Below are positions 1 to 40,081 of a stretch of 40,081 nt of DNA, in pieces. Numbering within the stretch: position 1 is the stretch's first letter; each line of letters begins with the position of its first letter. Source of the stretch: Rozella allomycis CSF55 (lineage: Eukaryota; Rozellomycota); assembly GCA_000442015.1 (NCBI GenBank), contig KE560617.1:1-40081 (forward strand), given 5' to 3'. The position numbers and the translations under genes were made by a program. The notes beneath the pieces were generated by a model, which was not told the DNA's origin, searched no databases, and saw only the letters and a list, made by a program, of their open reading frames with translations.

Positions 1-3000
1 GATCGGTTATTGTTGTTTGCAGAGTTGTTTTGAAGAGTCGTTGTGTTAGAGCGTTGAATCTTTTGATGTCTTTGGAATCTAGTTTTGAGTAGACGTTGCT
101 TTTAATTGCATCTAAAAGGATTTGAGTGAAATTAACATCTGAAGATTTTGAAGTGTCTATTGATGTTTTATCATTTGACGTATTCATTGATGGTTTCACA
201 TCGTTCGTCTGTTCATCTCTTTCTCCACTTTTCTCTACCCCATCTCCATCTCCCAATCCAATAATCTTCAATCTATTCCCCGCACTCTCCAAAACAGGTT
301 TCAAACTTCTCAAACTCCAATCATAATGTTTCCTCCTTCCAACCAGCTTCATACAATAGTCAAATAATCTACACACACTCTCTGCCAACTCAACACTATT
401 TTTGTTTGTACTATTTGGAATGTCACTCTGCATGAACCCATTAGCAAACAGCAAAGTCTCTGAAATCTCCAGCTTATCAGGTACACTCATTGCAATTGGA
501 CGAAAGAGAACTTTTAAATTAAAGGGGATCTTTTGGCGGCCCTTATATGCACGGCCTACTGGATTTAGTGTGACAAAGATTGCAGAGTTGGGGTGCACTG
601 GGACTCTGTTGTTCATCAAGAGCACTATTGAAGTTATATAAGGTGGATTACCTGTAGATTTGTTGCTTTGTGAGACTTCACCAACATTCAACCCATTAAA
701 ATCATTATTCTCCCCACCATCACCTTCACTACTAGAAACAAGAACAGATTGAATTTCCTGAATCTGCTGACTAACAGCTGCCAAAACCACTGAATCCAAT
801 CGATTAAACTCATCAAAACAAACCCTATCAACTCAAAAAGTATAATTTACCAGCTGCCACATTTAACAATACCAGTGAATATTCTCTCCATTGATTCAAC
901 ATCCAGCCCTTCATCGCAATTAAACACCATAACCTGTATATGTGCAATTCAAATATTTTACTTGTCTTCCTAGTAGACAGCCTAGAGCTTTAACAGATTC
1001 AGTTTTTCCAGTAGCAGCTGGACCGAATGGATTGCCAGCGTAGCCTCTTAGTAGCGCTTGAGATAGATTAATGAAACATTTTGAGGTTAGTTCAGTGTAA
1101 ACTAGTCTTTGAAAGTTTCCCTATTTGAGAGAGATAGTTGGAGGTGTACTTGGTATTCAAATGAATGAATAAAGGAAGCATCACATATTTTGATTATACA
1201 ATCTTTAGAGTCTAAATCAACGTAGAATCTTAATTGTTTTTGCCATTCCCAATGATTTATATTTTGAACATTGTTTTTGATTAGAGATTTGATTATTTTA
1301 ATGTAATGAATAACATCCAATATTAAAGCATTGATTTTGTATTTCTCATGTTCTTTTGTTGGGGTTAAATTTGTTAATTTATTCAACATTGATTGATAAT
1401 CCACCAACAGAGATTCAAGGGTTTGGCTTGAACTATTAGAATTGACACTTTTATCTTCATTTATTAATTTATTTTTGTCTAGAACGAGAATGGATTCAAT
1501 GGAACAAGTGAATTGAATTGCATGACATAAACAAATAGTCTCTTGTGGGTAATCAGCCAATGGAATTTTATCATTTAAACAACTAATCATTAACAATTTC
1601 AAAGTATTTCTAATTTCAACATCCAACAAATTCATCCAATCTTCAATCTTTTCATTCATTTGAATTAAATTCTTCAACAGAATTACTTCCCCTTGTCTAC
1701 TAACAATTCCTTTAATGAAATTATCACTAAACAAACAATATTCAACTCCATTAAATATCTTTTTGAAATGTTGGTTCATTACTTCTCTTGTTCCATTGAA
1801 ACTAATTAATTCTAATAAACTTTCATCATTTAGAAAATAAAATTTAGGGAAATTGTTTCTTTTTGTTTCTAAAAATTCATTTAAATCTTTTTGGTAAATT
1901 TCAAATTCTGAAACTAGATTTTGTAAAATTTGAAATAAATTATTAAATGAAATGAAATTTATCAATCTGGAATCTTTCTTGATAAAATTTAATATATCTT
2001 TCATTTGATTATTCAACGAATTAAAATTTGATTTAGAACTATTAGAACTATTAGAAGACTTGAAACTATTAGAACCCTTAGAATCTAAACTTCTAGAATT
2101 TAAAGAATAGATGGGGTTTAAGTATAACCACTTTCTTTGGGCTACATTCAATAATTGAGTACAATTTGACATTAAATTTAATCTCTCTTGCCACAACTTT
2201 ATTTTATCTTTAAAATAGATTGAACAATCATTCTCTTTAATACTCTCTATCAATGATTGATTATCTCCTATCATTGTCAACACTTCCCTCCATTCTTTAA
2301 CAATAAAATAATCTCCTTCTTGCTTCATCACAAAACAACTCTTAATCCCCCAATCATCCAACTCTTCCAACGATTTCTTAATCACACTCTCTGAAACAAC
2401 CCTCTTATTCAACTCTCTAATTCTCTCTCTTTCTTTTTCAATCACTTCAATCTTCATTATCATTTCTCTAATACTCATTGGATACTTTATTTTAATCAAA
2501 TTACTCAATTCTATCCAATTCTCTCTTGTATATTCCTCCCCCTTTAACAAACTCTCATACTTTTGAAATTTATCAATCTTTCCTATTGTTTCTTTAATAA
2601 ATTCTATCCTGCTTTCTCTCCATTCTTTTTCTATTTCAATCTTTTTCTTCTTTTCAATTTCAACCTCCAATCTCTCTTTAATCTCACCACTAAATTTTAT
2701 TATCTCTTTCAATTCATTTATTCTACCCCTCAATTCTTCCATTCGAGAGAGTTCCAAAGACTGAAAAGGTTCAACTTTAATTAGGTTATTCCCATCACTA
2801 TTATCACTCTTCTCTACGTCTCTGTTCTCCCCTTCTCCCTTCAAGCTTAATATCTCAATTTGACCTTCAATTTCATAAAACTCCTTCACAAAAGCTTCAA
2901 CCTCTCCAACCTTCTCCTCAATCCCCTCTTCAAAATAATCTCTAGGCACTTCAAACACCCTCCACTTGCTCACAAACTCTTCAAACACTTTACAAAACTC

Positions 3001-5923
3001 ACTCAACTTGTCCTTGTACTTGTCCCTAATAACCATCACCTGCTCCTGCAAGAATATCTCATATCCATTCAACACAATCTCAAGCCTCTCCCACTTGCCA
3101 AACATCTCACTCAAATTCACAAAGCTTCCAACACTCTGCTTCAATATCTTATTCAACTGCTGGATCTCCTCAATCTCTATCAAACCCTCCATCCTCCGTC
3201 TCTTCAATTCAACAAACACACTCCGCGCCCTGCTAATCTCTTCAAAATTACTCGGCTTGATCGATATCTCCTTCAAACTAGCACCAACAAACTCTTCAAC
3301 AATCGCAATCTTCCCACCAATTCTATTCCTCAAACTCTTCAACACACTCTCATAATACACCTGCAAATTCCTCTCAATACAATTCTATTAAAATAATTCA
3401 ACCCCCTTACCTTAATCTCAACACACTCAACTTTAATCCCACTAAACTCAAAACTAAACTTCACACTCTCCAACTCCCTCCCCTTGTCCTTGACAAACTT
3501 CAACTGCTTCACAAAATCATCGCCAGTTTCCAACCTCAAATCAATCATCTTCATCAACTCTTCCTCCTCTGGCAAACTCAACACCCACTTCTTAAACCTC
3601 AACGGAACCATCAACACCTGGTTTATCACACTCTCAGCCCTCCGGTACACCTCACAAACCTCATAACTACACTCATCAACTATCCCGCCAAAATCATACT
3701 CATCACTCAGTCCCTTGAACTGGCTCGGTATCCCAACATACTTTTTCAACTCCCTATACATCCGCATCCGCACATCCTCAATCCCAGGCTTATACTGCAC
3801 AACCTTGTTCCGCACAACAACCTCAACCCTCACACTCTCAATACACTCCAAAACCTTCTCCATCCCGCTCTTATACTGGAACAATAGTATCTTATACAAC
3901 TGATTATCCAAAAACCTCAACCAGCCCCTCATACTCTCCCTCGAATACCCCTCACTACCAAGCTCGCCAACAACAACCCGCATCTCATTCAACACCTCCT
4001 TATACCTCCCACTCGCTCTCATCAAATCAACATCAACAAGCTGCACCATCAACCCCACTATCCTCTCATGCCGCTGCTTCAGTTTCACATTCTCACGCGT
4101 CAACTGCATCATCACCCGCTGCAACATCCCAACATACTCCTTCACCTGCCCCTCATCATGCCACTCAATCTCCCGCTTCATATACTTTCCTGGATACTTT
4201 ATCATATTCTCAAACTTCATCGCTTGCTCAACCAACATCCCTTGCTGCTCCTTCAACACCTGCACATCAAACGAATTATAAAACTCGGCAACCTGCTTCA
4301 ACACACTCACTGAACGCCCAATCCGTTGGAACTTTTCAGCTCGATCCAGAAACTTCTCAGGCACTTTATACCCGTGCGCTGCAAACTGACACACACTGCG
4401 CACAAACCGGTCAATCGATTCGTTAAACAACACACACAACTTGCCATCACTCATATTCATATTCATCAACCGACCATTCTTGTCCAACTGCAACTCTGAA
4501 TTCACATCACCCAAATCTCTCTCCATTTGCACCACCCACTGCTCAAACACCTCGTCGGCTTTCAAAATCAAATCATTGCTCAACTCTTCACACACTCTCT
4601 TTTGGCTGCCATTCAAGTTGCTCAAATGTTTCACCTGTCATTTAAATCTCCGATGTTTACCTGGTGGGAGCCATGCTTCAGAGCGACAATTTTAGTAACA
4701 ATCTCCGCATCACTTGTTTCTATTGGCTGGAGTTTTAGTGCCTCAAATTCCTTGATTTTCTTTTCCGTCTTGACAAAAATAAGCACATCCAGTTTGGTGG
4801 ATTTTATTATTCCAGTAGATAGAAAATCGACATATTGGTTATAGCTATTTTCGTCATTATTAATCTTGTTTAGAATATTTTCAGAAACAATATCACAAAT
4901 ATCTTCAAATTGCGCATTCTGATTGAGAATATAACAATCAATTACTGATTTTCCATTCAAAGTATCGAACAGCGACTTTACCAGAGCTTCTTTATTCATC
5001 GACTTCATCTTTGGTAGCTTCGTTGCAAAATCAAATAAGAATGCCATTCCTTTGGCCTATTCATCGTCAATTCACATTCTTACTCGCATCAGCATTTTAT
5101 CAATCTGTTCTAACTTTGCATAAACATCTTTATTCAATGACAATGTTACAATTCCTTGCTTAAAATTCTCAAAAATGCCTTTCACTTTTCCATATTTCTC
5201 AATCGCCTATATTCAGAAATCTCATTGAGTCTCATACCGCATACAATGACCATTCAAAGAGCAATGGAGACTGCACAAATGTCTCTTTCAAATACTCATC
5301 AATAATCTTCAACGCAACATCAACACCCATCTTCTTTCCTTGCTCACTACATGACCAACAACCAGCCTCATTACTCAACCATCTCCAATTCATTCAAAAC
5401 ATCATTCAAACTATCCTCACTTACACTCTTTGCCAAATTTGCCAAACAGTCCCTCAAATTCTTATCCTCCACTCTCTCCAACTCNTCCACTTTCTCCAAC
5501 TCTCCACTGTACTTTCCCAACTTGGCCTCCCTCACAAACCGCTCAATGGCCACTAGCTGCTGCACACACGCATCAATACTCATCCTATCACACACCACCC
5601 AACCCATTACGTCGCCGCCAACGGAATTGCAAATTTCTCTACAATCACCTCAATATCGCCAACCAGATCGTACGGCTTCAATGTCGCTACACTGATATCA
5701 TCACGCTGCTTCCTAAAACACAAGCATGTTGAAATCGCCGTTGGACTAGACGATTCACATACAATTTGGTTGGCCTGTCAGATATTGAAAATTGACTTAC
5801 CGATTCATGACAGAATAATGTGCCGTCGGCGGAATGTTTAAATGCGTTGATTTCATTCCTTGATGATGGAGTGATGTCCGAAACTTGGAAATACGCGCGG
5901 ATCACTTGCTCAATATCGATCAT
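1..5923 (-). CDS. DYNC2H1: Cytoplasmic dynein 2 heavy chain, N-terminal part (retrograde IFT motor)
   Basis: Motor heavy chain that drives retrograde intraflagellar transport in cilia and flagella. Only the tail, linker and first AAA module are present; the 3' part runs off the left edge. Ten short GT-AG introns restore one frame: 5775-5800, 5585-5610, 5347-5374, 5207-5237, 5057-5083, 4635-4660, 3385-3410, 1121-1149, 934-961 and 825-850 (26-31 nt). The tail contains a stretch like the family's LKQVAHFYNS region (here [10 protein letters not shown]). The linker ends in [13 protein letters not shown]1 follows with Walker [10 protein letters not shown] near 1000-1050, then FNCDEG and CFDEFNRL, a Walker-B-type motif. 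These features match DYNC2H1 rather than DYNC1H1 or axonemal chains as I know the families. The start is the ATG at 5921-5923, giving a short N-terminus comparable to the family. A single N at 5485 leaves the frame open. Transcribed divergently from QTRT2, 244 bp away. Confidence 0.95.
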
Positions 5924-8350: not shown

Positions 8351-9297
8351 CTAGTCATTTTCTTTCNTGTCTGGATAATGAAAGACAGTGGACAGATACA
8401 TCACTGACGTCTCAAGGTTCAATTCTACGCCATGACAAATCACTAAAGAATAGTTTTGATTATTAAGACATTGATCCAAAAGGCATGCGATGTTTTTTTC
8501 AACCTTTTTAACTCGATTAATTGATTTACCTTGGCGTTAGTCAATGGTGAAAAGGGCTCCTGAATTACTTTTCCATCTGGTAAATACAATCTAAACGGAA
8601 TGTTCTTAACATAATTTGTTCCATTTATTTTTCTATTAATTTCACAATATTCTTCAAAATTATCTATATCAAAATCTTGGTGGTTTAATTACGAGATTCA
8701 ATACTACTCCAAATTGAATTTTGGTCGGTAATAGATAAATTCATTATTTTTTGTACGTTTCCATATTTTAGATAGTTGGACTGCCAAAAAAATTTAGTGA
8801 CAAATATTACCTGCTTCAAAATTGACAATGCGTATTCAGATAGATCGTTAAATTTAAAATTGGTTTCCTTTATATCTAAATTAAGCACAAACTCTAATGG
8901 TTTCGCGTAATCCCAATAGATATCTGCAAGTAGCCCAACCGGGTAGTTCCTAAACGTTTCGTACTTGAGACAAGCATACCATTTCACAAGAGTATCAATT
9001 TTGGGTAATGTTATAAACAAACGACTTTGTATTTCATGGTAATCTACCCAATAAATATGATTTTCTTGGAATATCCTCTCTATCAAAACGGGTAGATAAG
9101 AACATCTGTACGCCATAGTCTAATTCATATACCAAGTTTGAAAATACGTGATATGGAAATATTTTCTCAAGTTTCAATAATAGCTGTACATCATTTGCAC
9201 CATTCCCATGAAAATGCAATGTCAGTGGAACTTTACTATACCAAACCTTTTTCTTAATGACATAATCCAATTCATCGGCTTCTGCTTCCTTATTCAT
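8351..9297 (-). CDS. ATG5: Autophagy protein 5
   Basis: ATG5 is conjugated to ATG12 and, with ATG16, forms the E3-like complex that lipidates ATG8 during autophagosome formation. Three introns (9120-9147, 8664-8692, 8504-8529; 28, 29 and 26 nt) join four exons into a 287-residue protein, close to the 275 of human ATG5. Recognisable features in order: VWYSKVPL near residue 18 (family VWxGxIP), an aromatic/WxDYHE segment, NYPVGLLAD near 108-116 (family YPIGLLFD), INRK, then IPFRLYLP. Lys134 in LDIKET aligns with the lysine that receives ATG12, as far as I can align by eye. I chose the ATG at 9295-9297 because it gives a short leader before the VW motif; an in-frame start at 9342 is also open. 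The last residues after HYPD are uncertain because of the N at 8367, and the family's hydrophobic C-terminus is not visible. Confidence 0.88.
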
Positions 9298-9366
9298 ATT
9301 TTTCAATAGTTTGAAGCTTAAATTATTCATGAAAAGATTCACATCAGGAACCTCCTAGTCTAAGCC

Positions 9367-9947
9367 ATGGATGCACTTGTTTCTTCGTATCCGTTACCTC
9401 CATCGTATTATAATTTGTATACAGACGAAGCCCTACAAAATCAAACTGCCCCTTTACCACCAAAACCAATAGAATACGGAGAGACTTATACTGTTTTCGG
9501 GGCAGAATACAAAGTAAGTTGAACGCAACGAGAAAAAAGAATGATATCTGCTTTAACGTGAATTTAAAAGATCAAGGTGTAGAAATATTGTATGATGAAA
9601 ACGATCATCCAAAGGAAAGCATGAAATACTTGTTTCAACGCCTGCACTATCAACTAATTTCTTACTTGGATGACATACATATGAACGAAGAAAACTTATT
9701 AAAGAAAGTCGACGAAACTAGATTGATTCTTATCAATATGTACCATCTAATGAATTGCCATAGATTGGAACAGGTAATTCCAGTTACCATTTAATTTCAC
9801 AAGGCAAAACAAAAGGTATACGATATGATGCAATCTCAAATAAATATTATTAAGGAAGTAGAGATTAAGGAGGTCGAAAATTGGAAGAAAAGACTTGTAG
9901 ATGAGAAGGCCCAACTTATCCAGTCGTTAAGAGAAGTTTTGAATTAG
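9367..9947 (+). CDS. MED7: Mediator complex subunit 7
   Basis: Middle-module subunit of the Mediator coactivator, nuclear, acting with MED21 and MED31 at RNA polymerase II promoters. Three exons give 193 codons minus stop: 9367-9513, 9540-9773 and 9804-9947, separated by 26- and 30-nt introns. The first exon has the MED7 hallmark of a proline-rich start, then YPLPPSYYNLYTDE, LPPKP and a YxVFG motif. The second contains HPKESMKYLFQRLHYQL and a helix ending in MYHLMNCHR, corresponding to the MED7 stretch ending in VHHLINEYRPHQ. The third is a predicted coiled coil. The total, about 174 residues, is short but complete, since human MED7 has a longer acidic tail. The ATG is 69 bp from the divergent ATG5 start, implying a very compact shared promoter. 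Confidence 0.88.
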
Positions 9948-10746: not shown

Positions 10747-10747
10747 N

Positions 10748-11289: not shown

Positions 11290-11290
11290 G

Positions 11291-16341: not shown

Positions 16342-17782
16342 ATCCAATTCCACCATGATGGCAACTATATGTACGCTAACGAAGCATTTACGTTGACCAA
16401 CGTAAAGAGCATTGCGAAGAATGATATTGATGCCAAATTGTCCTACATCATCACAGAAAATGGTTTGTTGAAATTGGTTTGGAATCTCAAGGTTGATATG
16501 AAAGGTTCTGACAACTGGTTTGATACTGCAGTTTGTGCCTACTCAGGCAATGTACTTTCATTGATTGATTGGGTGGCTGATGCACTGTACAATGTTTATC
16601 CAATTGGAACTGCACACCCTCTTGATGGTAGAAGAGCTCTATTAGTAGATCCGTATCCTAAAAATGCATCGCCTCTTGGATGGCATCAAACAAAATCTTG
16701 GAACAGCACTCAAACCAAAGGAAACAATGTGTATGCTCAAGAAAACGTTGACGGAGGATATGATTGGGCTAACAACTACAGACCAGATGGTGGTCGTAGT
16801 TTAAAGTTTGATTTTCCCATTGATTTTAAGAAGAGTCCGAAAACATATCTTGACGCAGCTATTACCAATCTCTTCTTTTGGAATAATGTTATGCACGATC
16901 TTTTCTATCAGTATGGCTTCAATGAAGTTTCTGGAAACTTTCAGGAAGATAATTTTGGAAGAGGCGGTTTAGGAATGGATGGTGTTATTGCCAATGCGCA
17001 GGACGGATCTGGAACCAATAATGCCAATTTTGCAACTCCACCAGATGGACAAAGAGGAAGAATGAGAATGTATGTGTGGACCCAAACCAATCCGAACAGA
17101 GATGGAGATTTAGAGAATGGAATCATTATTCATGAATATGGTCACGGAATATCTACAAGATTAACAGGAGGACCTGCCAATTCAGGTTGTTTAGGATTTG
17201 GAGAAGCTGGAGGAATGGGTGAAGGATGGTCTGATGTGTTTGCAGTTCTTCTTCGTCAAAGACCATCTTATAACAGAACTATGAGATTTTCAATGGGTGA
17301 CTACTCAAACGGTGGTATCGGTATACGAAGATATGACTATACAACAAACATGAAAATAAGTATTTAAATCATTCAATATTCAATTAGATCCCGAAACTTA
17401 TGGATATATTAAAAAGTCTGGCTATTGGGGTGTCCATGCTAAAGGAGAAGTTTGGGCGGGAATACTTTTGGAAAGCTATTGGAATTTTGTTGACAAGTAT
17501 GGCTTTAATGAAAACTGGTACAATAAATTTGGTGGAAACTCAATGTTCCTTTCTCTTGTTGTTGATGGGTAAATTGAATCTACGCATTTGAATAGATTGA
17601 AATTACAACCTTGTCGTCCAACCTTTGTCGATGCACGAAATGCGATTCTTCAAGCAGATAAAGTCAAATTTAATGGAAAAAATTCATGCTTGTTGTGGAA
17701 GGGATTTGCTAAACGTGGACTTGGATTGAAGGCTTCTGCTGGAGGAAATGAAGATTTCTCAATGCCAACTGAATGTTCTTAA
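16342..17782 (+). CDS. Fungalysin metalloprotease (M36), 5' truncated
   Basis: Secreted zinc endopeptidase, missing the signal peptide and first part of the FTP propeptide because the piece starts at an N. Exons 16342-17359, 17388-17568 and 17596-17782 are joined by introns 17360-17387 (28 nt) and 17569-17595 (27 nt), which restore the family reading frame exactly. The mature domain carries the catalytic zinc motif HEYGH (17131-17145) and, about 25 residues later, GEGWSD (Glu at 17221-17223), the third zinc ligand region of M36. Downstream, GYWGVHAKGEVWAG, LKLQPCRPTFVDARNAIL and LLWKGFAKRGLG are all fungalysin signatures, and the stop is in the expected place. Fungalysin families are expanded in chytrid pathogens and degrade host matrix; the host role here is inference. 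Confidence 0.92.
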
Positions 17783-17813: not shown

Positions 17814-18937
17814 TTATTTCTCTTTAGCTGCCATCTTCATCACTCTTTTCATTGTTCCTTTGTTCATTATTTAATAAATAGCTTACTCTCAGAAAAATAA
17901 TTACGTAGACAAGAAGGCACTGATATAGACACTAGGTAAGCAATTGCATGTGGCCAATATGGTGTTGTAAATGAGGAAATTCCAATCTTTTTCATTGCAT
18001 GCTCAACATACTCTTTTGCACTAGGAGCCATGAATGATGGCTTTAATTTTGACATTTTAGTCGACACAAATGAAGTGTTCAATAATTCAACGTGAATGCC
18101 ATCTTTTGATACTTCTCTGTTCAAACTTAAACTCCACATCTTCAGAAAGGCTTTAGCCGCACCGTAGGTTTGTAAATATGGCATAGGAAATTCTCCCGCA
18201 AATGATCCAACGGTCAAAATGAATCCATTTTTCTGCGCAACAAAGATCGGTAAAATGGCTTTTGTCATTTCCAAAGTGCCAGTCACATTAATCTGGATTA
18301 ACTTTTCAATCATTTCCTCCTTTTCTTCATTGAACAATCTCGGCAAATCATTAGCTACGCCGACATTATTAACTTTTTTCAGTCATTCATATATGTTACT
18401 CAAAATATAACTTTTCACTTCACTAATTGCAGCTTTTAGTCTTGAAAACTCCCGTGTTTCTGCTGTAGAATAATCGATTGAATGAGTCCTAGTATCAACC
18501 TTGTACTTTTGGCCTTTGATATACTTTGATTAATGTTACGAATTTCTTTAGAGATATCATCTAACTTTGTTTGGCTTCGGGACACAAGGAAAATGTTGAA
18601 CCCTTTGGATGCAAATTGTTTAGCAAACTCCTTCCCAATCCCATCAGTGGCACCAGTGACAATCACCCATCCACCACTTCTTAAGCCATATTTTTCCCAC
18701 TAAGGTATAATATATACGTCAAATTACATTAACAGGTGAACGTAAAAATGTGACATATATGAATTTTAGTAGTTTGATGGCAATTGTCACCACGAAGAAC
18801 AGGCCAATTGCTGAAAACGCTTTGCACTCAAGAAATTTGTATGGACACAGATATCTCAACCCTAATTGCTATTAATTTATATCGCTATTACACTCTGAAT
18901 GCAACTCTCCAAATGGACAACTTCCTACCAACCACAT
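17814..18937 (-). CDS. Very-long-chain 3-oxoacyl-CoA reductase (HSD17B12/IFA38 type)
   Basis: ER-membrane short-chain dehydrogenase that reduces 3-ketoacyl-CoA in the fatty-acid elongation cycle. Six exons give 327 residues, as in the family. Introns: 18862-18891, 18700-18727, 18514-18539, 18373-18399 and 17858-17886 (26-30 nt). A hydrophobic segment near residues 31-55 is the N-terminal anchor. The Rossmann motif TGATDGIG is at 75-82, NNVG at 153-156, Ser208, and the catalytic Tyr221 and Lys225 in YGAAK. The flanking TRTHSIDYS and VKSYILINNVG match KAR/HSD17B12 rather than soluble SDRs. The first exon (46 nt) is inferred from the frame and is the least certain part. The last exon adds a lysine-rich tail ending KEK, suggestive of ER retention. 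The stop converges with the fungalysin stop, 31 bp away. Confidence 0.88.
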
Positions 18938-21630: not shown

Positions 21631-22830
21631 ATGCTGCAAAGTACATCGACAAATAACGGTATTTTTAATCTGGTTGGTATATTTAGATATTGAAATATCC
21701 ACACCTCTCAATGATACGGTGTCTGAGCTTTGCTTTTCGCCTGTAGCTGACTACCTTGCAGCATCATCGTGGGACGGGCAGGTAAAACAATACAATAACT
21801 ATTAATAGACACGAGTTTGGGAAGTACAAGCAAACGGACAAACGGTTGCACGTACCAGCATTCAACACGACCAACAAAATCCTGCATTATGTTGTACTTT
21901 TTCAAAGGATGGAACAAAAGTTGTCAGTGGAGGAACTGATAAGGCTGTAAGAATTTTAGATCTTAATTCCAACCAAACTATGGTTTTGCAAGGAGTAAAC
22001 AGGAAGCCCTATAATTCATTTAGCATGAAGGTCCAGTGAAATGTGTAAAATGGGCAGAAAGCATGTCCCCTATCGTAATTTCGGGCTCTTGGGATAAAAC
22101 TGTTAAAGTATGATATAGTTTATGATGTAATTAGTATTGGGACTTGAGAAGTCCAAACCCAGCTGCCTCCGTTACTCTTCCAGAAAGATGCTACACAATG
22201 GATGTACAATATCCCCATTTAGTGGTGGGAACAGCAGAAAGAAATATTTTGATATTTAACTTGTCGAATCAGTCGTTAGTCAAGGTACGTTTAATGAATG
22301 CATTTGATTCAGAATACCGTTTCACCATTGAAACATCAAACAAGAACTATTTCTTGCTTCCCTGATGGAAAAGGATATGCTGTAGGCTCTGTAGAAGGCA
22401 GAGTCGGTATCGAATATTTCGACGAAAAGAACTCAAAGTAATTACAAAACCTTACTTTAAACAGCAAATTTTCTTTCAGATGTCACCGTGAAGGAAACAA
22501 CATCTTTGCCGTTAACTCAATATCTTTTCATCCATTTTATGGAACATTTTCTACAGCTGGATCAGATGGAGCGTATGCTTACTGGGACAAAGACTCGAAA
22601 TCTCGTCTAAAAACACCAACAAGCGTCGGAAATCCAATTACTTCTACTGCGTTTAATAGAAATGGGACAATTTTTGCATATGCCACTGGATACGATTGGC
22701 ACAAAGTAATTTAATCTATATTGATGAATTTAAGGGACATGAGCATCACACACAAGGAACAAAAAATACAATCAGGTTACATGCTGTTACGGACTCTGAA
22801 ATTAAGCCTAAAGGATTCAAAAAACGTTAG
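21631..22830 (+). CDS. RAE1: mRNA export factor RAE1/Gle2 (WD40)
   Basis: Seven-bladed WD40 protein that docks on the Gle2-binding motif of a nucleoporin and acts in mRNA export. Eight exons give 334 residues (human 368). Introns: 21659-21686, 21782-21808, 21995-22023, 22108-22134, 22285-22312, 22438-22464 and 22706-22734 (27-29 nt). Family signatures appear in order: SPVADYLAASSWDGQ, VISGSWDKTVKYWDLRSP, SVTLPERCYTMDV (human VLQLPERCYCADV), VGTAERNI, GSVEGRVGIEYF, FRCHREGN, IFAVNSISFHP, GSDGAYAYWDKD and FAYATGYDWHKGHE. The N-terminal FG-like leader of the human protein is mostly missing; the ATG is only about ten codons before intron 1. The stop is 26 bp from the convergent ALG12 stop. Confidence 0.96.
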
Positions 22831-26382: not shown

Positions 26383-27678
26383 ATGTCCGTTTCAGTTAGT
26401 AATTCAGAATTTCTTGTTGAAAACACATTGCCCACTGCCAAAATAACCGGCGTCCATGATTCTTTACTTCAAGAATCTGAAAAGGACATTTTATGGTTCC
26501 GGGATAATTTCATTTGTCAAGGTAGCAGGCACCATTAATTTCTATATTATTAGAGCATCAAACATATCTATGTACAGACTCCCCTCGTGGACCTATGGCT
26601 GTATCCCTCGTGCTTGACAAAGATACATATAAAATACTCGTTAGAACAGATCAGGTATAATGATTAAAAATAGTTCATAAGGGTAGTGAGCGTCTTAGTA
26701 TCGCATCGCGCAATATAAGAATACCATGGTACAAAAAAGTGCTTGGATTATTACCATCATTGGCTGATATAATGAGCTCGATTGACGAAAACTTTCCTTG
26801 CCAGACACTAAGACTATGTAAAGAAAATAGTATTGCAAAAGATCTACTGGCAATGGAAGAGCGACAAGTAAAAATTTTATTGTTACATGACATGGTTATA
26901 CGATCGTATAAATTTGGCCTCGTGTATGTAGGATCCAATCAAAGCACAGAGGAAGAGATGTTTCAAAATAGACTGGGTAATTATACAAAGTTGCGTTGTT
27001 AGAAAACACATCGGCCAAATTTCAAGAGTTTCTTACATTTATTGGCGAGAAAATAGAACTAAAGGGATGGAAGGGGTATAGAGCAGGCCTTGACGTCAAC
27101 GGTAATTAACATAATGATTAATTGATAGATAATCAAACGGGGCAACATTCGATCTATACAAAATGGCAAGGCTACGAAATCATGTTCCATGTCGCACCTC
27201 TGCTCCCATATTCCGCCACCGACAAGCAACAAGTAAGCTAAATATATAGCATACACGCAGCTTGAGAAAAAGCGACATATCGGAAACGACATTGTGGTGA
27301 TACTCTTCCAAGACTCGGACACGCCATTCAGAATCTCGACAATAACCAGTAAGCAAAACCACGTAATCTGTGTAATTAAACCCCAGGGTGAAGGATACAA
27401 GTAAAACAAATTCTCTGCCGTGTAACTAGAATGACGATTGTACACAAGAACGGTGTTCCAGCGTATACCCCGGAGCTCCCCGACCCGACATATTTTGAGC
27501 GTAACGCAGTTTCGCGTGATTTTCTTTTGCATAAGCGTATGAAATTCTTTAGTTTTTTTAAATAGTCGTCAATGGCGAAAGGGCGTGCTATAAAGCACCA
27601 TCTTTTGCACCCAAGATTTCACGAACTCGATCCGTATTGATCAAGGATGTGGTAGAAAAGGGACTTGCATCTCAATAA
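26383..27678 (+). CDS. Rap GTPase-activating protein (RapGAP domain)
   Basis: Stimulates GTP hydrolysis by Rap-type small GTPases. Eight exons give 365 residues, essentially a bare catalytic domain. Introns: 26522-26553, 26655-26681, 26977-27002, 27102-27128, 27233-27260, 27401-27429 and 27537-27565 (26-32 nt). Motifs in order: FGLVYVGSNQSTEEEMF, IELKGWKGYRAGLDV, HSIYTKWQGYEIMFHVAPLL, then KRHIGNDIVVILF, which contains Asn255, the catalytic asparagine thumb of the family. Near the end come LPDPTYF, FLLHK and GERACYKAP, matching the RAP1GAP/SIPA1 C-terminal part of the domain. PDZ, GoLoco and coiled-coil extensions of animal members are missing. Choice between RAP1GAP and SIPA1 lineages is not possible by eye. 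Confidence 0.93.
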
Positions 27679-27844: not shown

Positions 27845-30412
27845 ATGAGTGTATCTAAAGCGACACTTTTTATTCGTGGGATCCCCAAAGAGGCCACCAA
27901 GGAAGATTTAGCAGAGATATTAAGCGAAACGAAGCCTTCTAATTTTTTTCTTGTCCAGAAAAAAGGACAAGAGCAGCACAGTGGGATCGCGTATGTGCAC
28001 TAGTAAGAGTCGGTGTTAAGATAGAGTAGTATAAAAGAGGAGAATGCAGTCAAGGCTAAGAGTGTATTGGAAGATAAAAAGCTGCATGGAAGGAACATCC
28101 AAGTTGATTTTGCATTGAAGAAGAAGAGAGAAGAGGATATGAAACCAGGCAAGAGAACGTTGAAAAAGATGAATCCTAGTGAAAGAGAAAAGGTCAAGGA
28201 GGAAAAAAAGGAAAAGAGTGAGGAAGAGATTTTGGCGGAAAAGAAGGAGAAGAAGGAAAAGGTTAAGCAGGAGATGATTAAAAAGGCGCAGGAAGCGAAG
28301 CAAGCGGAAGAAGCCTCACCTGCATCGACGTTGGTATTAGTGAAGAATGTAGCAAAGGATGTAGATCAAAAACAGTTTTACAAACGCGTGAAGAAGCTTG
28401 GGGATGTTAGTATTGTTTCATTTGGAGACGGACAAGGTAAGCATTGCATGCTGGTCTTAAAATAGCAAGAATATGTTTTTCTAGTATAGGAGAGGCAAGA
28501 GAAGGATTTAAGAAGCTTGACCAGCATGTGTTTAAAGGGGAGACGATGAGTTGTGAGTATGTCTATGAAAACAGAAGATTGATTATAAGAAATTTAGATT
28601 TCGCAGTTGATGAGGAGTATTTGAAAGAAGAGTTTGGAAAGATTGGGTTGGTTACTGATGTGCAAATTCCCGTTAAAGAAGATGGACAAAAGCGAGGGTT
28701 TGCGTTTGTTGAAATGGGGACAGAAAAGTTGGCTAAAAAGATTATTAAAGAGTTTAATGGAAAAGAAATAAAGAAAAGGCCAGTTGCCATTGATTTTGCA
28801 TTTAATAAAGAAGAATTTGAAAAGAAAAAAGTTGAGATTGAAGAAAAGGAAGCGTTGATTGCAAAGAAGAGAGAAGAGGAAGAAAGATTAGTCTTTAATG
28901 AAGAAGATGATGAAGAATTTGATATGGAAATGAACCCAATTGAAGGTAACGAAGAAGTAGAAGAAGTAGAAGAGGTGGAAGAGAGTGAAAAGGAGAGTGA
29001 CAGTGATGATGATAGTGACAATGAGAATGATGATGAAGAAGAGAGTGAAGGTGAAATCAACGATGATAAGGCTGAACAACAAAATGAAACGGAAAGAAAG
29101 GATATTCAAAAGAAGAAAGAGAAGTCTTGGGATACAGAAGATGGGTGCACGGTTTTTATTAGAAATATTTTACTATCTGCTAGCTATGAATCAATTAAAG
29201 AAGCTTTGAAGCCATTTGGAGAAATAGTCTATGTTAAAATGGTTAAAGACAAAGAAACCGGTGAATTCAAGGGAACAGCGTTTGCAAGGTTTAAAACTAA
29301 AGAACAAGCGAACGATGCAATAGAAAAATCAAAATTAGGTTTAATTAATTCAAATTCTGCTCTTTCCGATAGAACCCTTGTTAAATCTTCATTGTTAGTA
29401 CAAGATGACCAGGGTGTCTACATTGAAGGAAAACCAGTTTCAATTTTCCCAGCGATTAAAGATGTTGATAATTTAATAAAGAAAAGAGACGAAGAAGGTT
29501 CCTCTGATGTCGATAAAAGGAATTATTTTCTGTTAAAGGAAGGAGGTAATTTCTGAAATTTCTTAAATAATATTAGTGATTTTTCCAGATTCTCCAGCTG
29601 CCAAAGATTTAACGCCATCTGAATTAAAAAGAAGAATGGAATCATTCGATGAAAGAAAAAGACAATTAAAGAATCCAAATTTTATTGTTTCGAAAACACG
29701 TCTTTCTGTTAGAAATTTGCCTTTAGATGTTGATGAAACTCAATTAAAACTATTGGCCAGAAATTCGGTCATGGAGAGAAAGAAATTAACAGAAGAAGAA
29801 AAGAAATTAGAAGGCTGGGATAAAAAACTAAAAATAGTTCAAGTGAAAATTGTTAAAAGCAAAGATCGAGTTGATTCAAATGGTAAATTCAGATCTAAAG
29901 GTTATGGATTCATTCAATTCTCTCAATTTTGTCACGCCATGATGGCTTTAAGGCACATGAACAATAATCCAAATCTTTTAAAGAAAAGACTAATCGTTGA
30001 ATTCGCTATTGAAAATCTAAACATTGTTAAAAAGAGAAATGAAAAATTAAAAGCCAAAGAACTCAAAGACAAAAATGATGAAAAGAAGGATAACGAAAGC
30101 AAGGAAGAGAAGGGTTCAAAGAAGGAAAAGAAAGTTAAGAAGCCTAAAGAAAATAAAGATTCTGAAATGTCAACAGAAAAAGTTAAATCCAAAACAGATC
30201 CTTCTAAGCCTAAAAAGAAAAAGAAACAACAAGAAAAAGTTGATCAGCCTCAACCAGTTGTAACAAATCAACTAAAAAGAAAAGTTGACGAATCTTTAAT
30301 AGACAAAAAGAAAAAGAAAAAGAAGAATATTGAAAAGGTTGATAATTTTGATGCAATCTTGTCTTCTTACAAGGATAAACTTTCAAATGAATTAAACACA
30401 TCGGCATTGTAA
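27845..30412 (+). CDS. Nucleolar multi-RRM protein, RBM28/NOP4 type
   Basis: Ribosome-biogenesis RNA-binding protein, about 826 residues. Four exons with introns 28003-28029, 28437-28465 and 29546-29576 (27, 29 and 31 nt). Five RRM-like units at roughly 6-85, 150-222, 228-305, 415-490 and 590-690; RNP1 motifs such as KRGFAFVEM, FKGTAFARF and SKGYGFIQF are visible. A long acidic tract (about 330-390, Glu/Asp/Ser) separates the third and fourth, and the C-terminal 130 residues are lysine-rich. The last RRM (TRLSVRNLPLDVDETQLKLL ... ALRHMNNNP ... IVEFAIEN) matches RBM28/Nop4 best. MRD1/RBM19 also has five or six RRMs, so the label is probable, not certain. The second RRM is divergent. Confidence 0.85.
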
Positions 30413-33426: not shown

Positions 33427-34173
33427 TCAAGCGAGATGAAAATGTCTCGAATACAACCAAACTTCTGCAAACAAAACAATCATACCCACAATGAGCGCCA
33501 AAATAACTCTCTAAAATAAACAAAACCAATTCACCATACCGTCCCCACATCAGGGATCACGTTCCTAAATGCCCACATCACCGCTACAATACAGCCAACA
33601 AATGAAAACAGTATATTCAAAATTGCGGTCATTTGCCTTTTAACCAACTTTCCTTCATCAATTTCACCCGGCGATCTTATAGTCATCTCAGAATAACCGT
33701 GAAAGGAAGCGCTGCGTATCATACTCTCATATCTCTCTGTATCAACCTTCAATTGTGCCTTGTCAAGCATCTCCTGCAGAGATTTCGACTAAATTCTTGA
33801 TAAAAGCTTAATTACCCGTGAAACTTTTTGTTCAGGGAAATAGAAACTACTCGATTTACACAGCTCGTGCAGCCAGTACGGCGATCTTTCTAGTCACCCC
33901 CGAAATGTATATTTACCAATCTCTTCCTCCGTTTTAAACTTTCGTTCGTGCGATATGAGAAATTCTGACAGCTGTGAAAGCAGCGAGACACTGATGTAGT
34001 GTTCTAGGAAAACGATAGCGATTTCAATTACCTGTGTAATCTGCGCAAGTGGACTCGGGATGGGAGCATAATAAAGAAAGATCGGATTTTAGAGTTGAGG
34101 GTATAGAATCTATTTGCACTGCAATATCTATCGCTTTTTGTAAGGGAGGCCCGATCTTTAGGAATAGTGGCAT
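33427..34173 (-). CDS. V-ATPase assembly factor, TMEM199/VMA12 family
   Basis: ER-membrane factor needed for assembly of the V0 sector of the vacuolar proton pump. Five exons give 211 residues, matching the family. Introns: 34004-34031, 33890-33916, 33789-33815 and 33511-33539 (27-29 nt). The soluble N-terminal half ends in YWLHELCKSSSFYFPEQK (family L..LL.GS.IY.P pattern) and ERYESMI. Two membrane helices follow: MTAILNILFSFVGCIVAVMW and VILALIVGMIVLFAEVWLY. The first contains the family hallmark (xxxNxxxSxxGxxxAxxW). The ATG at 34171-34173 is inferred from the restored frame of the first exon. The gene lies 70 bp downstream of WDR35 on the same strand, so the two are head-to-tail with almost no spacer. 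Confidence 0.85.
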
Positions 34174-34243: not shown

Positions 34244-37200
34244 TTATTCAAACGGTTGATGGCACAACGCACAAAACTCAAAACTAGACTCATTAGGCAT
34301 GAATCTTCCATGACAAGTAGTGCATTCAATGTATTCTTTCCCCAAAATATTTCCAGTTTCAATCGACAATGGAAAATTTAAATCACACTGAGAGCACTTG
34401 CATTCGTAATCGTACACAGTGTTTCTACAATTTGGACATTGGAAGGCGCTTATTGGAGGATCAATCGGGGGATGCCTTTTGAGTGGATTAAGAACTTGTT
34501 ACGATTTAAAAATATCGCGACCAAGATTATCTAATACGACGCATTCTTTTTCCTGGCTGATAGATTTCAACGCTGAGATTGACTTTTCGCAGTATTTGTA
34601 AAGTTTGNTACAAATATCGCGACAAAGATTATCTAACACGACGCATTCTTTTTCCTCGCTGATAGATTTCAACGCTGAGATTGACTTTTCGCAGTATTTG
34701 TAAAGTTTGGCTTTAAGAGATGCTAGAATGGCAAGCTTTAAAACTATTTTAGGATCAATGAAATCATCAAATTGTAGCAAATAAGCAGTCTATTTGAAAT
34801 ACAGAGTATAAACTATACGATTCTTAAAGAGGCCATGTATTTCTCTTTTTGATAAAGATTTTGAGCCAACAAAAAGAAATGATAAACTTTTGCACCTTTC
34901 CAAGAATAATCCAAGGGTTTTGAAGAAGAAATATTGAATTCTAAATCAACCGAGAATGAATTTTGATAATAAATATTACTTTGGATTTATCTTCACTAAT
35001 CACAACTTCATGTCTCTGTAAACAAAGCGAATATAAAACAAATGCCTTTTTCTTCTCCAGTAAATTACTAATTTTATCAATCGACTTTTAAGACGAATTA
35101 AAAAGGGTTACGTTGTTAATTAGAATAGCCGCTTTAGAATAAAACTTTCCATTGCATAATAATTGAATGGCTGTAAATATTTTATTCTCTTTTATTAAGA
35201 TTTGCCCATAAGTTGTAAATAAGTTTTGAACATCACATGAATGATTTCTTTGGGCTAAATCCAACGCAATATCCCACAATAGTTTAACTAGTCAATGATT
35301 GTTACTTGATTTTGTTCAATGCAAATATCAATGGCATCTTTAATTAGACCATTTCTCTCGAGGCATTTTACACCTTCCCTTGTGAATCCATGATTGACTA
35401 GGCGAAATCCAANTTAGTTAGTGATTGTTACTTGATTTTGTTCAATGCAAATATCAATGGAATCTTTAATTAGACCATTTCTCTCCAAGCATTTTACACC
35501 TTCCCTTGTGAATCCATGATTGACTAGGCGAAATCCAATTGTTGAAAGTAATGGATGTGAATCACTAATATTATCAGCACACTCAATTGCCAAGTCAAAA
35601 TCCTTGTCCAAGAAGCAACAATCCAAAAGTTTTTCATATTTATGGCATTGATGATAAAACCTAGCCGCAGAACCCCTGTAATAAATTCAACCTTAAATTA
35701 CCATTTTCGTCTATCAAAATAATAATCACCAACTTTTTCTAAAACATTCTCCAATTCCAAATCACTTTTATTATATCCACTATTAAATAACTCCAATAGT
35801 TTAAACCAATCACATATAGTGTAATACATGTCATAGACTAGATCTAATCTATCTATTCTTTTATAAATCTCTTCTGCCTTTTCAAATTCTCTTAAAAATC
35901 TAAATTTTTCGGCTTCCAATAAATCAAGATCCTTTATTGAATTCATTCTATTTGTTACAGAAATTGATTGAATTCTCTTAATAAAAGAAACAGAATAATA
36001 ATCTTTTGCTCTAACAAAAACTCTTAAAGCATTTTCAAAATCATTTCTCTTAATTGCTTCCATTCCAATCATCACCCAAAGATCTTTATGAGGAGTGGAT
36101 TGAACAAATTTTATACAATCTTCTAAATCTACACTTTTTAACATGACAATTTATTAATTAAATAATTTATTTTACTTTTTAAATCTCTAAATGGTTTTGA
36201 CTCGAAAATCTTCAAACAATCTTCCTTTGGATGAAATGGATCGCAAAGCAACAAATCAATCTTAATAACAGTCACATAAAGATCTGAAAAGTTTACAATG
36301 TCTTTAATGTAACCAAAAGAAACTCATTTTACTCCCTTGAAATTCAACAGGCTCTTCTGGTTGTTCATCATGGAAAATATACACTTTATTCTTCTCAGCC
36401 AAAGCAAATGAATTTTCTGATTCGTCTGACCAAACTATTCCCCAACAATCTCTTCGTTCAAAGGTTTCGTTAATCACAATTCTATTTCCTTCAATTGAAG
36501 CCAATCTCGCTTTCCCATCAACATCAATCATTGAAAATTTATTAGAAACACAATTCAAACAAACAGAAAGTACATGAATACCAGATTTTATGACTTCATT
36601 GTTCAAAGATGGAAGTTGAAGTGCAACAATCGAGCCTTTCTCTTCACAGACAATCAAATATTCATCACTACAACACATCGATGTTACATGAATGTCATCG
36701 TTCCTATTAATAAATATTTGATCTCCTTTTTACAATCCTTTGAAATTTTCTGAATTTTCAAGAAATTCTGGAATAACTTTGTTCTCTGAAAATAGACATT
36801 CCAGCGCTATCATTTTTATTCTAAACCTATTCTTAAATCTTGTTGCCCCTTCTTGCTCAATGGGCACCACAAACAGATACCCCCTCCCAACCAAAAACAC
36901 ATGTGTAGAGTTCATGCAATACTTTCGTGGACGAATTGGTATATCCCGTGTNCCTTGTTGCCCCTTCTTGCTCAATAGGCACCACAAACAGATACCCCCT
37001 CCCAACCAAAAACACTTGTGTAGAGTTCATGCAATACTTTCGTGGACGAATTGGTATATCCCGTGTAAAAAGTATAGTTCCAACACTATTTACTAATCCA
37101 AACATTCTCCATCAAATTATTTAAGAATTAATTACGGTTTATCTTCAGTATAGAGAATACCAAGTCTTGATTGGTAAGACATCAACTCTACCGTCGAATT

Positions 37201-38406
37201 CATGCGTCTGTTTCACTAATTCAACATAATTTACTTTATTCCAACATTATTTGATTTTGTGTTCCAAAACAGAATGTCTGATCCTTCCTTGGAAGGAACT
37301 GTGTAGATTAAATTTGAATCACAATAGCAAACAGAATTATGTGTAATCACCCTGCCAAAGTAAATGGTACTCTCAATAGCAAAAACAATATTCTGGGATG
37401 AATAATCCCATGAAAAGTTTATTGGCTCCCCAGGAAGCTTCAGTTTTCTAACAACTTTTCCATTTTTATGATAAAAACAACAATAAAAACTTCCCTCTGA
37501 TTCACCACAAACGGCTAACAAATCTTCCTTTGTTGACCAATGTGCAATCGCATTATTCAATTGCGTATTGATAATCACGGCTACCTTCAAATCTCTACTG
37601 CAATTTACGTTTTGCGTTTGAGCATTCAAATAAATAAATTTCTCCAGTATCACATCCAATAGTCAATCCTTTTCCTTGTCCAATGGGCCTTTGATTCCTC
37701 CACATCAACATTACCATTCAACACAAGTAACCACTTTTTCCGATGGAATCGATGCACTCGACAACACATTTCCATCAACATCGCAAAATAAAATACTGTT
37801 ATGCGAGGTCACAAACACAAGCTGATTATTCTTTGGCGACCACGCGATCCATCTCGGTAGATGACCCTTCAATTCTCTATTCCACAATCTTGCTCCATCA
37901 ACAGCTCCACACAACAAGTTCCCTTTTAAACATTCCTGCATCGCATACCATCTTCATACGCTATACATATCTTTCTCCCATCAGGCGACCAGCAACACGC
38001 AACCACTCGATTCTTCCCCTTGCTCGAATTAGTCATCTCCTCCGTCCACGCCCCATCCTTCAGCTGCCACACAATAACCTTGCCAGTCTCATCAGCAGTT
38101 GCAAGTCTCGCATACTCATTATTCCAAATCGCATGCGTAACAGGCGCTCTCTCATCATCTCCGAATCTTTACCATAATGACCCTCCAAAATCTGATCAAG
38201 CTTTTTTATCTTGCCGGATACATCGTTTGATCTCACCTCTTCGTCTAACTTGTACACCTTGACATTGTTGCTTTTGCTGCTGCCTCCAACCACTAGATAT
38301 CCATCCTTGTTGCACCAGCTGACAGCTTTCAGTGGTGATTCTATTCCAGTGGTAATCTATCCGATCATGGAATGACGATTACTTTTTTTGATATGAATGC
38401 AAACAT
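34244..38406 (-). CDS. WDR35: IFT-A subunit WDR35/IFT121
   Basis: Core subunit of IFT complex A, used in retrograde intraflagellar transport and membrane-cargo entry into flagella. N-terminal WD40 propellers (VSWCNKDGYLVVGGS, THAIWNNEYARLATADETGK, WSPDGRKICIAYEDG, RRDCWGIVWSDE, QPEEPVEF) are followed by TPR-like helices (WVMIGMEAIKRNDFENALRV, VGDYYFDRRKW) and a C-terminal zinc ribbon (CPNC, CSQC, CTTC, CALC). Introns resolved: 38357-38382, 38147-38172, 37923-37948, 37689-37714, 37581-37608, 37208-37234, 37107-37135, 36704-36733, 36302-36332, 36129-36175 (47 nt, the longest), 35676-35701, 35085-35111, 34790-34818 and 34476-34502. Three Ns (36952, 35413, 34608) are flanked by duplicated exon pieces that the real protein should contain once. 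One junction near 35282-35310 is not canonical and a 1-nt frameshift is needed near 34980. Confidence 0.93.
34510..34709. repeat. 98-bp direct duplication around an N
   Basis: 34510-34607 and 34612-34709 differ at only a few positions, with the N at 34608. Both code the same WDR35 helix (LYKYCEKSISALKSIS). Most likely two haplotype or contig copies of one exon piece. Confidence 0.8.
35296..35538. repeat. 117-bp direct duplication around an N
   Basis: 35296-35412 and 35422-35538 are equal in length and differ at a few bases; the N is at 35413. Both contain the WDR35 segment NHGFTREGVKCLERNG and the following splice donor. Beyond the donor the two differ (CATTGACTAG against CACTAACTAA). Confidence 0.8.
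36839..37066. repeat. 113-bp direct duplication around an N
   Basis: 36839-36951 and 36954-37066 differ at only two or so positions; the N is at 36952. Each codes the WDR35 stretch RDIPIRPRKYCMNST onward, so a literal reading would duplicate about 38 residues. Confidence 0.85.
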
Positions 38407-38965: not shown

Positions 38966-40081
38966 GTGATGTTTCTGCAATGTGTTCAAAATGTCATTAT
39001 GATGGATGAATATTGGCTGGGTGAGTATATTAAGGATGTTTTTGGCATGGAAACGAACGAAATTGATGACGTTGTTAGTCCCAAACTGCAAACGATGAAA
39101 AAAAATGAAGTCCAATTTTTTGAAAGCGCGCTGTACCGCAAATCCACGAGTTAGTTAAACAGAATGAGAAACAACAAACGGAGGATAAAATAGGTTCAAA
39201 CCACCCAGAAGTATTGAATGCATATATGAGGGATCAATAATTTATGACGACCCCGAAAAGATTGTTGTGTGTATTAGAAGTTTCTTTTTGAACCCACAAA
39301 ATGACTAGGATGTAAAACGTAAAGTGAAGAAAGTTCTTGAAAACTTTCCCCCATCTATTCGATATTTGAGGAGATATTTGATGAGAAATTTGTACCCGCC
39401 AGAAAGGGGGCTGCGTAACAAGTGGCGTTGGCAGAAGCCAATATTAAAATTGGATATTATATATACTGCACAGATTCCGTTGAATGAATTTTTGCCTACC
39501 AATTTGTTTAAAGTGCGTAAATGTTACAACGAAATTGCAAAATTGATTGATGGAAAGATTGACAACACCAACGTGGCAGTTATTGGAGGTCCCGGTGTTG
39601 GCAAAAGTACCTTTCTGAGGGATATGTTTATCTGGTTTGATAATACGAAAGTGTTCTAGGCCATTGAGAGTGGACAATGGATATACAACAATGGCAGATC
39701 GTTTACATCTGGAAGAATTGAAAACTATGTATGGCAAAACGATTAAGTTTATCTCTTGATTGATGGAAGTACAAACAATAAATGTTTGAGTAAAATCAAG
39801 ACGGCTGTTATATTTTCGTCACCAGGCTTGAAGCACAAAAGGAAAGAGAAATAAAGACGCGCAAATTAAATGATGATAATGATGAACAAGATGTTGATAA
39901 TAATGATCAAGATGATGAGAACGTGATTGGTTATGAACACAGTCAAGAAGCAAGAAGACGAAGAAGAAACAGTTGAAATAGCAAAACATATATTTTGACA
40001 TGTTTAGAAAGCGTTGCGAATTGAAATTAGTGAAAGACAAAAGATTGTTGCTAGAAGGGTTAGACTTCTTTTTAGTCCAAC
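38966..40081 (+). pseudogene. Degenerate Crinkler/RHS-like P-loop ATPase
   Basis: A plus-strand coding trace broken by several stops and frame changes. Readable segments in order: EYWLGEYIKDVFGMETNE; a coiled, charged stretch (QIHELVKQNEKQQTEDK); DDPEKIVVCIRSFF; then a longer frame 39324-39659 ending in the Walker A motif GGPGVGKST (about 39,586-39,612) and FLRDMFIW. After a TAG the same frame continues with SGQWIYNNGRS and, after a TAA, VYLLIDGS (a Walker-B-like strand) and IFSSPGLKH. The GxPGxGKST/FLR, LLIDG and SSPG succession is what I know from Crinkler and retrotransposon-hot-spot ATPase domains. The stops imply a pseudogene, though sequence errors could add to the count. The right edge cuts the trace. 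Confidence 0.5.

Follow-up and report, generated by a model that had tools for sequence, protein, structure and literature searches.

Ultra-short introns of Rozella allomycis CSF55 and a putative branch adenosine near a constant distance from the 5' splice site

Introduction

Rozella allomycis is a flagellated, early-diverging relative of Fungi and Microsporidia. Here we present the introns of a 40,081-nt stretch of strain CSF55 (positions 1 to 40,081 of contig KE560617.1, assembly GCA_000442015.1), hereafter called the window, together with those of a larger sample of loci from the same assembly. Most of these introns measure 26-32 nt, and an adenosine is preferred at position +23, counted from the 5' splice site. 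They are probably ordinary U2-type GT-AG spliceosomal introns that have shrunk to near a geometric floor, in which some 22 nt would separate the 5' splice site from the branch site.

Intron sample and gene prediction

The searched assembly comprises 9,970,177 bases in 213 contigs, and the intron sample consists of 36 loci with a total of 292,417 bases (2.9% of the assembly), the window included. Introns were called with a simple gene finder based on codon-pair scores, which required GT..AG and used a flat intron-length prior of 15-300 nt; later rounds added learned splice matrices and then a learned length prior. After removal of duplicates and of introns less than 20 nt from a locus end, 523 introns were kept. 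The window set, limited to genes with a model score of at least 15, holds 67. Calls longer than 33 nt or shorter than 24 nt are regarded as unproven.

Intron lengths

The 86 introns of the first round, called with no learned matrices, were spread over all lengths. With splice matrices and flat lengths the other scatter was reduced, and 24-33 nt accounted for 105 of 283 introns; the classes of 26, 27, 28, 29 and 30 nt held 26, 28, 20, 14 and 6 introns, and all other lengths 0-7 each. With the learned length prior the figure for 24-33 nt was 446 of 531 over the 36 loci. In the filtered set 429 of 523 introns are 26-32 nt long. The counts rise abruptly from 6 introns of 25 nt to 96 of 26 nt, and the classes of 27 nt (the most frequent), 28, 29 and 30 nt hold 129, 84, 74 and 26. 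Introns were called in 34 of the 36 loci, all of which include some of 26-32 nt, and 375 of the 429 originate outside the window. Introns of 26-32 nt number 2.55 for each kb of predicted coding sequence; the published value for Rozella, in the portion of the source consulted, is 2.53 introns per kb (PMC8476143).

The trained coding model was also run with flat lengths and no splice matrix. Under these settings GT..AG yielded 345 introns, of which 178 were at 26-30 nt, 16 at 21-25 nt and 14 at 31-35 nt, whereas each of six decoy dinucleotide pairs (two retaining GT, one retaining AG) produced 229-273 calls, of which 12-27 lay at 26-30 nt and 6-30 at 31-35 nt. The length peak exceeds chance.

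An original prediction made from the letters of the window had held almost all of its introns to be ultra-short (65 introns: 26 nt (15), 27 (18), 28 (12), 29 (11), 30 (3), 31 (4), 32 (1) and 47 (1)). Our own model agrees, placing 54 of 67 at 26-32 nt: 26 (12), 27 (18), 28 (10), 29 (8), 30 (2), 31 (3) and 32 (1). The other 13 measure 19, 24, 25 (three times), 43, 47, 64, 78, 128, 176, 190 and 245 nt; in our judgement the longest are model errors, since those at about 34.4-35.4 kb adjoin unmerged overlaps at single Ns. That the distribution is centred on 26-30 nt beyond the window as well holds in the sampled part of the assembly, and the GTA start described as usual is found in 411 of the 429 introns. 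Regarding the statement that all introns begin with GT and end with AG, both ends were imposed in calling, and it could therefore be examined through the decoys alone, which speak for it. Of the 523 calls, 19 measure 41-48 nt; a second intron class of this size was considered and rejected, as its sequences have no trustworthy pattern.

Homology support

Homology supports the short introns in two genes. For RAE1, which lies in the window (Table 1), a profile of 119 other RAE1 proteins was used and all frame-preserving GT..AG candidates with a donor within 40 nt were scored for each intron; the short intron scored best at 7 of 7 sites. The spliced model reaches 522.4 bits against these proteins and the deposited Rozella protein 500.6 bits, which is 21.8 bits lower and of consequence for annotation. 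By identity the deposited protein agrees with the model at introns 2-5 and 7 (5 of 7) and disagrees at introns 1 and 6. For SMU1, which is encoded outside the window, the short intron ranked first at 7 of 7 sites with 119 homologues. Five of these are counted as supported, because introns 1 and 2 sit where the modelled N-terminus and the deposited protein disagree and the lead at intron 1 is 0.1 bit; the deposited Rozella SMU1 covers introns 3-5 and agrees there. In addition, the separate exon matches of Isy1 (135.1 and 53.6 bits) become a single match of 237.6 bits once spliced. Among the homology-supported introns, A stands at +23 in 6 of 7 from RAE1, with A at +24 in the remaining one, and in 5 of 5 from SMU1 (introns 3-7).

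Adenosine at position +23

With the introns grouped into length classes and lined up at the 5' splice site, A occupies +23 in 85 of 96 introns of 26 nt (89%), 85 of 129 of 27 nt (66%), 58 of 84 of 28 nt (69%), 42 of 74 of 29 nt (57%) and 14 of 26 of 30 nt, with z values against each intron's own composition of 11.1, 7.6, 6.2, 3.9 and 1.6. Over all introns of 26-32 nt the count is 296 of 429 (40/54 in the window, 256/375 elsewhere), compared with 34% A at +8 to +20. The smaller numbers obtained with no splice matrix give 90, 58, 74, 52 and 54% for 26-30 nt (z 7.9, 3.3, 4.8, 1.8 and 1.2). Where +23 is not A, +24 is A in 22/44, 11/26, 22/32 and 9/12 introns of 27, 28, 29 and 30 nt and in 0/11 of 26 nt; A is found at +23 or +24 in 281 of 333 introns of 27-32 nt.

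The spike does not track the 3' end, as A at -4 is near expectation in introns of 28 nt (30/84; expected 31.5), 29 nt (30/74; 26.5) and 30 nt (12/26; 10.2), and there is thus no fixed distance between this A and the AG. The 3' matrix, being aligned on the opposite end, cannot produce the spike in the longer classes. T is favoured at +21 (55, 51, 45 and 55% in introns of 26-29 nt, vs 39% T within introns), and no strict CTAAY branch motif was found in the sampled introns, the motif being weak. The putative branch A therefore tends to hold its place relative to the 5' splice site. The original prediction saw scarcely any space for a separate branch site; this part did not stand, in view of a positional signature that is easily missed if introns are aligned on the 3' end.

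First-AG rule

The 3' splice site is the first AG starting at least at +25 in 428 of 429 introns, and between +25 and the terminal AG one AG was observed against 28.0 expected. Upstream AGs are frequent (280 of 7,293 sites), and skipped AGs start at +22 in 7/429 introns and, among introns longer than 26 nt, at +23 in 26/333 and at +24 in 8/333. An AG seems to be usable only from the second base past the putative branch A and then to be used immediately, which would set the floor of 26 nt. The putative branch A lies 3-9 nt from the 3' end, which leaves no space for a polypyrimidine tract and bears out the earlier view on this point.

Splicing machinery

The assembly was searched for U1, U2 and U6 small nuclear RNAs. 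U2 (139.2 bits) and U6 (88.5 bits) match over the full models, and U1 (69.0 bits) is slightly under its gathering score of 69.5. The pairing sequences are canonical: ACUUACCUG in U1, GUAGUA in U2 and ACAGAGA in U6. The U2AF and SF1 homologues, to which the original prediction had drawn attention, are present. SF1 has helix-hairpin, KH and zinc-knuckle domains; the U2AF65 protein is matched by U2AF65 chains of the PDB over two RNA recognition motifs (RRMs), and its third RRM is matched separately. A U2AF35-like gene is suggested by adjacent zinc finger and UHM matches, no dedicated search having been made. SMU1 is present (414.7 bits). A search of the assembly with the RED_N profile gave no match and no signal anywhere, from which an absence of RED is not claimed. 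Six G-patch matches are candidates for SPF45. The predicted Cwc25 starts with MGGG, and a count by eye places Trp at 12, 24 and 72; in Isy1 the match to the Pfam model starts at residue 1. Judged by sequence, U1, U2, U6, SF1, U2AF65, the U2AF35-like gene, SMU1, Cwc25 and Isy1 all look conventional.

Interpretation

The whole intron would be recognised as a single unit composed of a GTA 5' splice site, an A at +23 or +24 and the first AG starting at least at +25. The U that often stands two bases before the A would make a UNA branch site facing the canonical branch-binding sequence of U2. With a nearly constant distance of about 22 nt between 5' splice site and branch site, and a distance between branch site and AG that varies by a few bases, intron lengths would start sharply at 26 nt and tail off by 32 nt. 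We infer that the segments are spliced in the cell, that the A at +23 is the branch point and that geometry sets its distance from the 5' splice site.

Several observations weigh against this reading. Most introns are based on the gene model rather than on homology, and 2 of 7 SMU1 introns are unsupported. The class of 30 nt (26 introns) is not significant by itself, nor is that of 29 nt when no splice matrix is used. About a third of the introns of 26-32 nt (133/429) have no A at +23, and in 52 of 333 introns of 27-32 nt neither +23 nor +24 is A. A at -4, which equals +24, is raised in the 27-nt class (65 vs 45.2 expected). The flanks are weak, with an information content relative to equal base use of 0.33 bits at +21 and 0.16 at +22 vs 0.72 at +23, and a purine at +22 is enriched in 26-nt introns only (69%, vs 55, 49 and 47% at 27-29 nt). 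Finally, the rule is insufficient: of 435 introns, 410 conform to GTA plus a first AG at 26-31 nt, but so do 413 places in exons, and if A at +23 or +24 is required as well, 350 introns and 228 exon places remain. The contrast in A+T between intron interiors (75.5%) and exons (63.3%) may supply part of the remaining discrimination.

The one-base character of the spike with its weak flanks, the introns lacking it and the purine confined to 26-nt introns are also what a different explanation would invoke, namely that the introns are real and short, that the A at +23 is a contact for some other factor or a weak sequence preference, and that the branch point floats. We regard this as rather unlikely, given that the T at +21 is raised as in a UNA branch site and that AGs are skipped upstream of +25 and taken at once downstream of it, as expected below a branch point. 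Definition by size alone, with no branch-site signal, was the proposal of the original prediction; the high uniformity of the lengths agrees with it, and so does the lack of a branch signature reported for Paramecium, Bigelowiella nucleomorph and dicyemid introns in the consulted text of a 2008 survey of 50 species (PMC2483917). The +23 spike in the classes of 26-29 nt makes it very improbable here, and the proposal is better refined than kept: in place of size itself, the distance between 5' splice site and branch site would be nearly fixed, and the length would vary through the first AG that follows. An artefact, in which sequencing frameshifts or chance gaps are bridged by the gene model, could draw on the single-N joins and false duplications of the assembly and on the intron calls that are wrong or unsupported. 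It is scarcely credible in view of the decoy pairs, the RAE1 and SMU1 homology tests, the agreement of the deposited Rozella proteins (five of the seven introns in RAE1, introns 3-5 in SMU1), and the published intron density.

It has to be asked as well whether, as in Paramecium, the lengths chiefly reflect the translation and decay of unspliced RNA, multiples of three (3n) being avoided or made to carry stops. Stops are indeed present in 105 of 129 introns of 27 nt, vs 56/96, 47/84 and 42/74 at 26, 28 and 29 nt, and phase 2 is commoner in 3n introns (27 and 30 nt; 51/155) than in others (52/267; p 0.002). However, 3n lengths are not avoided, 27 nt being the commonest class. With ends and phase kept, 99.6 stop carriers are expected at 27 nt, so that the excess arises mostly because the fixed ends fall in frame, and TAG is not clearly enriched in phase-0 3n introns (p 0.13 against other phases, 0.03 against non-3n introns). 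Detection is lower for stopless 27-nt introns (47/53, vs 126/129), and the small excess of phase 2 could reflect selection or detection bias. Translational shaping is weak, and we consider it improbable as the main determinant of length.

As regards the preferred reading of U2-type introns near a geometric floor, it is conceivable, and is put forward tentatively, that the Rozella spliceosome relies chiefly on geometry in choosing the branch point. It would take an A at a distance of about 22 nt from the 5' splice site, often preceded two bases earlier by U, and the first AG past that A would serve as 3' splice site, all with SF1, U2AF, SMU1 and branching factors of conventional sequence. For human splicing, the consulted text of PMC6692369 cites about 50 nt as the shortest spacing of 5' splice site and branch site, estimates the minimum for the B complex at 52 nt and shows that shortening this distance makes SMU1 and RED essential. 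If the proposal is true, the 50-nt human minimum is no general limit, early assembly must differ in order or shape, and other short-intron lineages credited with no branch signal may likewise conceal a signature anchored at the 5' end. A distance of about 22 nt with SMU1 and conventional factors would make the human limit testable by comparison and would bear on how a spliceosome fits on very short introns. Sorting by length with alignment on the 5' end, which reveals the signature here, is applicable to other short-intron lineages.

Genes of the window

The window encodes, among others, dynein heavy chain and IFT121/WDR35 (Table 1). The exons of the former match Pfam DHC_N2 with 175.3 bits and DHC_N1 with 20.1 bits, under its cut-off of 28.3. 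Of the two WDR35 model pieces, the first matches WDR35 of 8fgw, and so does the second over its first 480 residues. This gene model is disturbed by direct duplications of 101, 125 and 114 nt (95-97% identity) around single Ns at 34608, 35413 and 36952, which look like overlapping contig ends joined without merging; the remaining 18 single Ns of the window have no end overlap of that sort. The 47-nt intron of the original prediction, in the same gene, is doubtful, and a better fit would be given by a 29-nt intron that does not end in AG, or by an erroneous base. In the Rap1GAP-like gene, calls of 176 and 64 nt fall almost entirely inside the open frame 26664-26999. Searched alone against PDB chains (E 0.01), this frame gave no match where a RapGAP match was expected, and the two calls may therefore be either introns or model errors. 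The RRM protein is presumably NOP4-like.

Duplicated segments of 300 nt (98%), 227 nt (99%) and 148 nt (97%) are clustered at 10503-17782 together with 15 single Ns. The 300-nt pair of this cluster falls within the M36 metallopeptidase sequence; it is either a young duplication or assembly trouble. Positions 31315-32423 hold about 12 tandem copies of a 93-nt unit (93% match) that encode near-identical repeats, which we take to resemble ankyrin repeats. The tRNA gene at 21424-21497 (63 bits) is read as tRNA-Asp with anticodon ATC. The same genome has a tRNA-Val(AAC) on the minus strand at L008:1126-1199, and of 74 bases the two genes differ at 3, namely at one anticodon base and at positions 5 and 69, which resemble a compensating change in the acceptor stem. 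The gene at 21424-21497 may be a tRNA with the body of tRNA-Val that would decode an Asp codon, an identity switch, or the product of a single base error.

Table 1. Intron-bearing genes of the window and the individual introns of RAE1
Feature	Position	Strand	Introns	Evidence and remarks
Dynein heavy chain (partial)	79..5923	-	5775-5800, 5585-5610, 5347-5374, 5207-5237, 5159-5185, 5057-5083, 4919-4945, 4635-4660, 3385-3410, 1121-1149, 934-961, 825-850, 625-651; doubtful: 112-136	gene model
ATG5	8351..9403	-	9120-9147, 8781-8810, 8664-8692, 8504-8529; doubtful: 9355-9397 (43 nt)	gene model; three ATG5 Pfam domains on spliced protein, C-terminal tail omitted
MED7	9367..9947	+	9514-9539 (26 nt), 9774-9803 (30 nt)	Pfam Med7 80.2 bits on spliced protein; model score 12.3, hence outside the 67
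M36 metallopeptidase	16369..17782	+	17360-17387, 17569-17595	gene model
Short-chain dehydrogenase	17824..18560	-	18373-18399 (27 nt), 18500-18524 (25 nt); doubtful: 17886-17904 (19 nt)	gene model
bHLH protein	19223..20270	+	19789-19815, 19869-19896	Pfam HLH 51.2 bits on spliced protein
RAE1/Gle2	21631..22830	+	seven, 27-29 nt	matches 7byf (mRNA export factor), E 6.1e-89; 98% identity with deposited Rozella protein P0001
RAE1 intron 1	21659..21686	+	28 nt	A +23; best of 9 candidates including itself, margin 4.3 bits only; deposited protein implies a longer intron
RAE1 intron 2	21782..21808	+	27 nt	A +23 and +24; best of 4
RAE1 intron 3	21995..22023	+	29 nt	A +24, not +23; best of 2
RAE1 intron 4	22108..22134	+	27 nt	A +23; best of 3
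RAE1 intron 5	22285..22312	+	28 nt	A +23; best of 19
RAE1 intron 6	22438..22464	+	27 nt	A +23 and +24; best of 4; residues missing here in deposited protein
RAE1 intron 7	22706..22734	+	29 nt	A +23; best of 3
Rap1GAP-like	26383..27678	+	26522-26553, 26977-27002, 27102-27128, 27233-27260, 27363-27386, 27401-27429, 27537-27565, 27634-27660	1srq E 3.7e-47 on spliced protein
RRM protein	27845..30412	+	28003-28029, 28437-28465, 29546-29576	gene model; RRM domains on one exon
Vma12 family protein	33427..34173	-	34004-34031, 33890-33916, 33789-33815, 33511-33539	gene model
WDR35/IFT121, two model pieces	34244..38406	-	38357-38382, 38147-38172, 37923-37948, 37689-37714, 37581-37608, 37208-37234, 36704-36733, 36302-36332, 35676-35701, 35085-35111; doubtful: calls of 25, 78, 190 and 245 nt	
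WDR35 intron call	36129..36175	-	47 nt	leaves a 6-residue gap vs WDR35 of 8fgw; a 29-nt intron restores the length but ends TG

Comparison with known short-intron systems

Statements on other organisms refer to the consulted parts of the papers cited. Ultra-short introns as such are of a known kind. Among the literature matches listed (titles and beginnings of abstracts), no paper was recognised that addresses the length of Rozella introns or the position of their branch site, although the Rozella genome paper may report lengths; the word 'intron' is found nowhere in the text of the Paramicrosporidium genome paper. Likewise, no description of a branch signature tied to the 5' splice site in this genome, rich in introns and with short ones, was found among the matches listed.

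The introns of Paramecium and Nyctotherus measure about 20-33 and 21-29 nt, those of Nyctotherus with the ends GTA...TAG (PMC5014332, PMC2633312), and intron density in Paramecium is relatively high (PMC2483917). The Rozella introns fall mostly within the ultra-short range of the Paramecium type (about 20-34 nt). These ciliates display 3n depletion or stop enrichment and have no reported branch signature, whereas in Rozella 27 nt is the commonest length and the A at +23 is visible. Rozella has been described as a sister lineage of Microsporidia (PMC8476143). Encephalitozoon cuniculi has GT-AG introns of 22-76 nt (PMC3629993), which the Rozella introns resemble in their ends and overlap in length; microsporidian introns are, however, few and have a strict CTAAY-type branch motif (PMC2483917, PMC3629993), whereas those of Rozella are many and the motif is weak.

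Stentor has introns of 15-16 nt with the branch A at a fixed 10th or 11th position and a weak consensus; its Cwc25 has kept three Trp and lost the Gly2-4 motif, and the N-terminus of its Isy1 is not conserved (PMC9505925). Rozella is similar in that an A, the putative branch A, tends to keep a fixed place counted from the 5' splice site, though here this is +23 and not +10, and differs in that the Cwc25 plug and the conserved N-terminus of Isy1 appear not to be lost. In Yarrowia, Trichomonas and Giardia, whose introns have no polypyrimidine tract, the branch site carries a strong motif and has a set position relative to the 3' AG (PMC2483917). Rozella shares with them a set position of the putative branch site and the lack of a polypyrimidine tract, but its signature is weak and tied to the 5' splice site.

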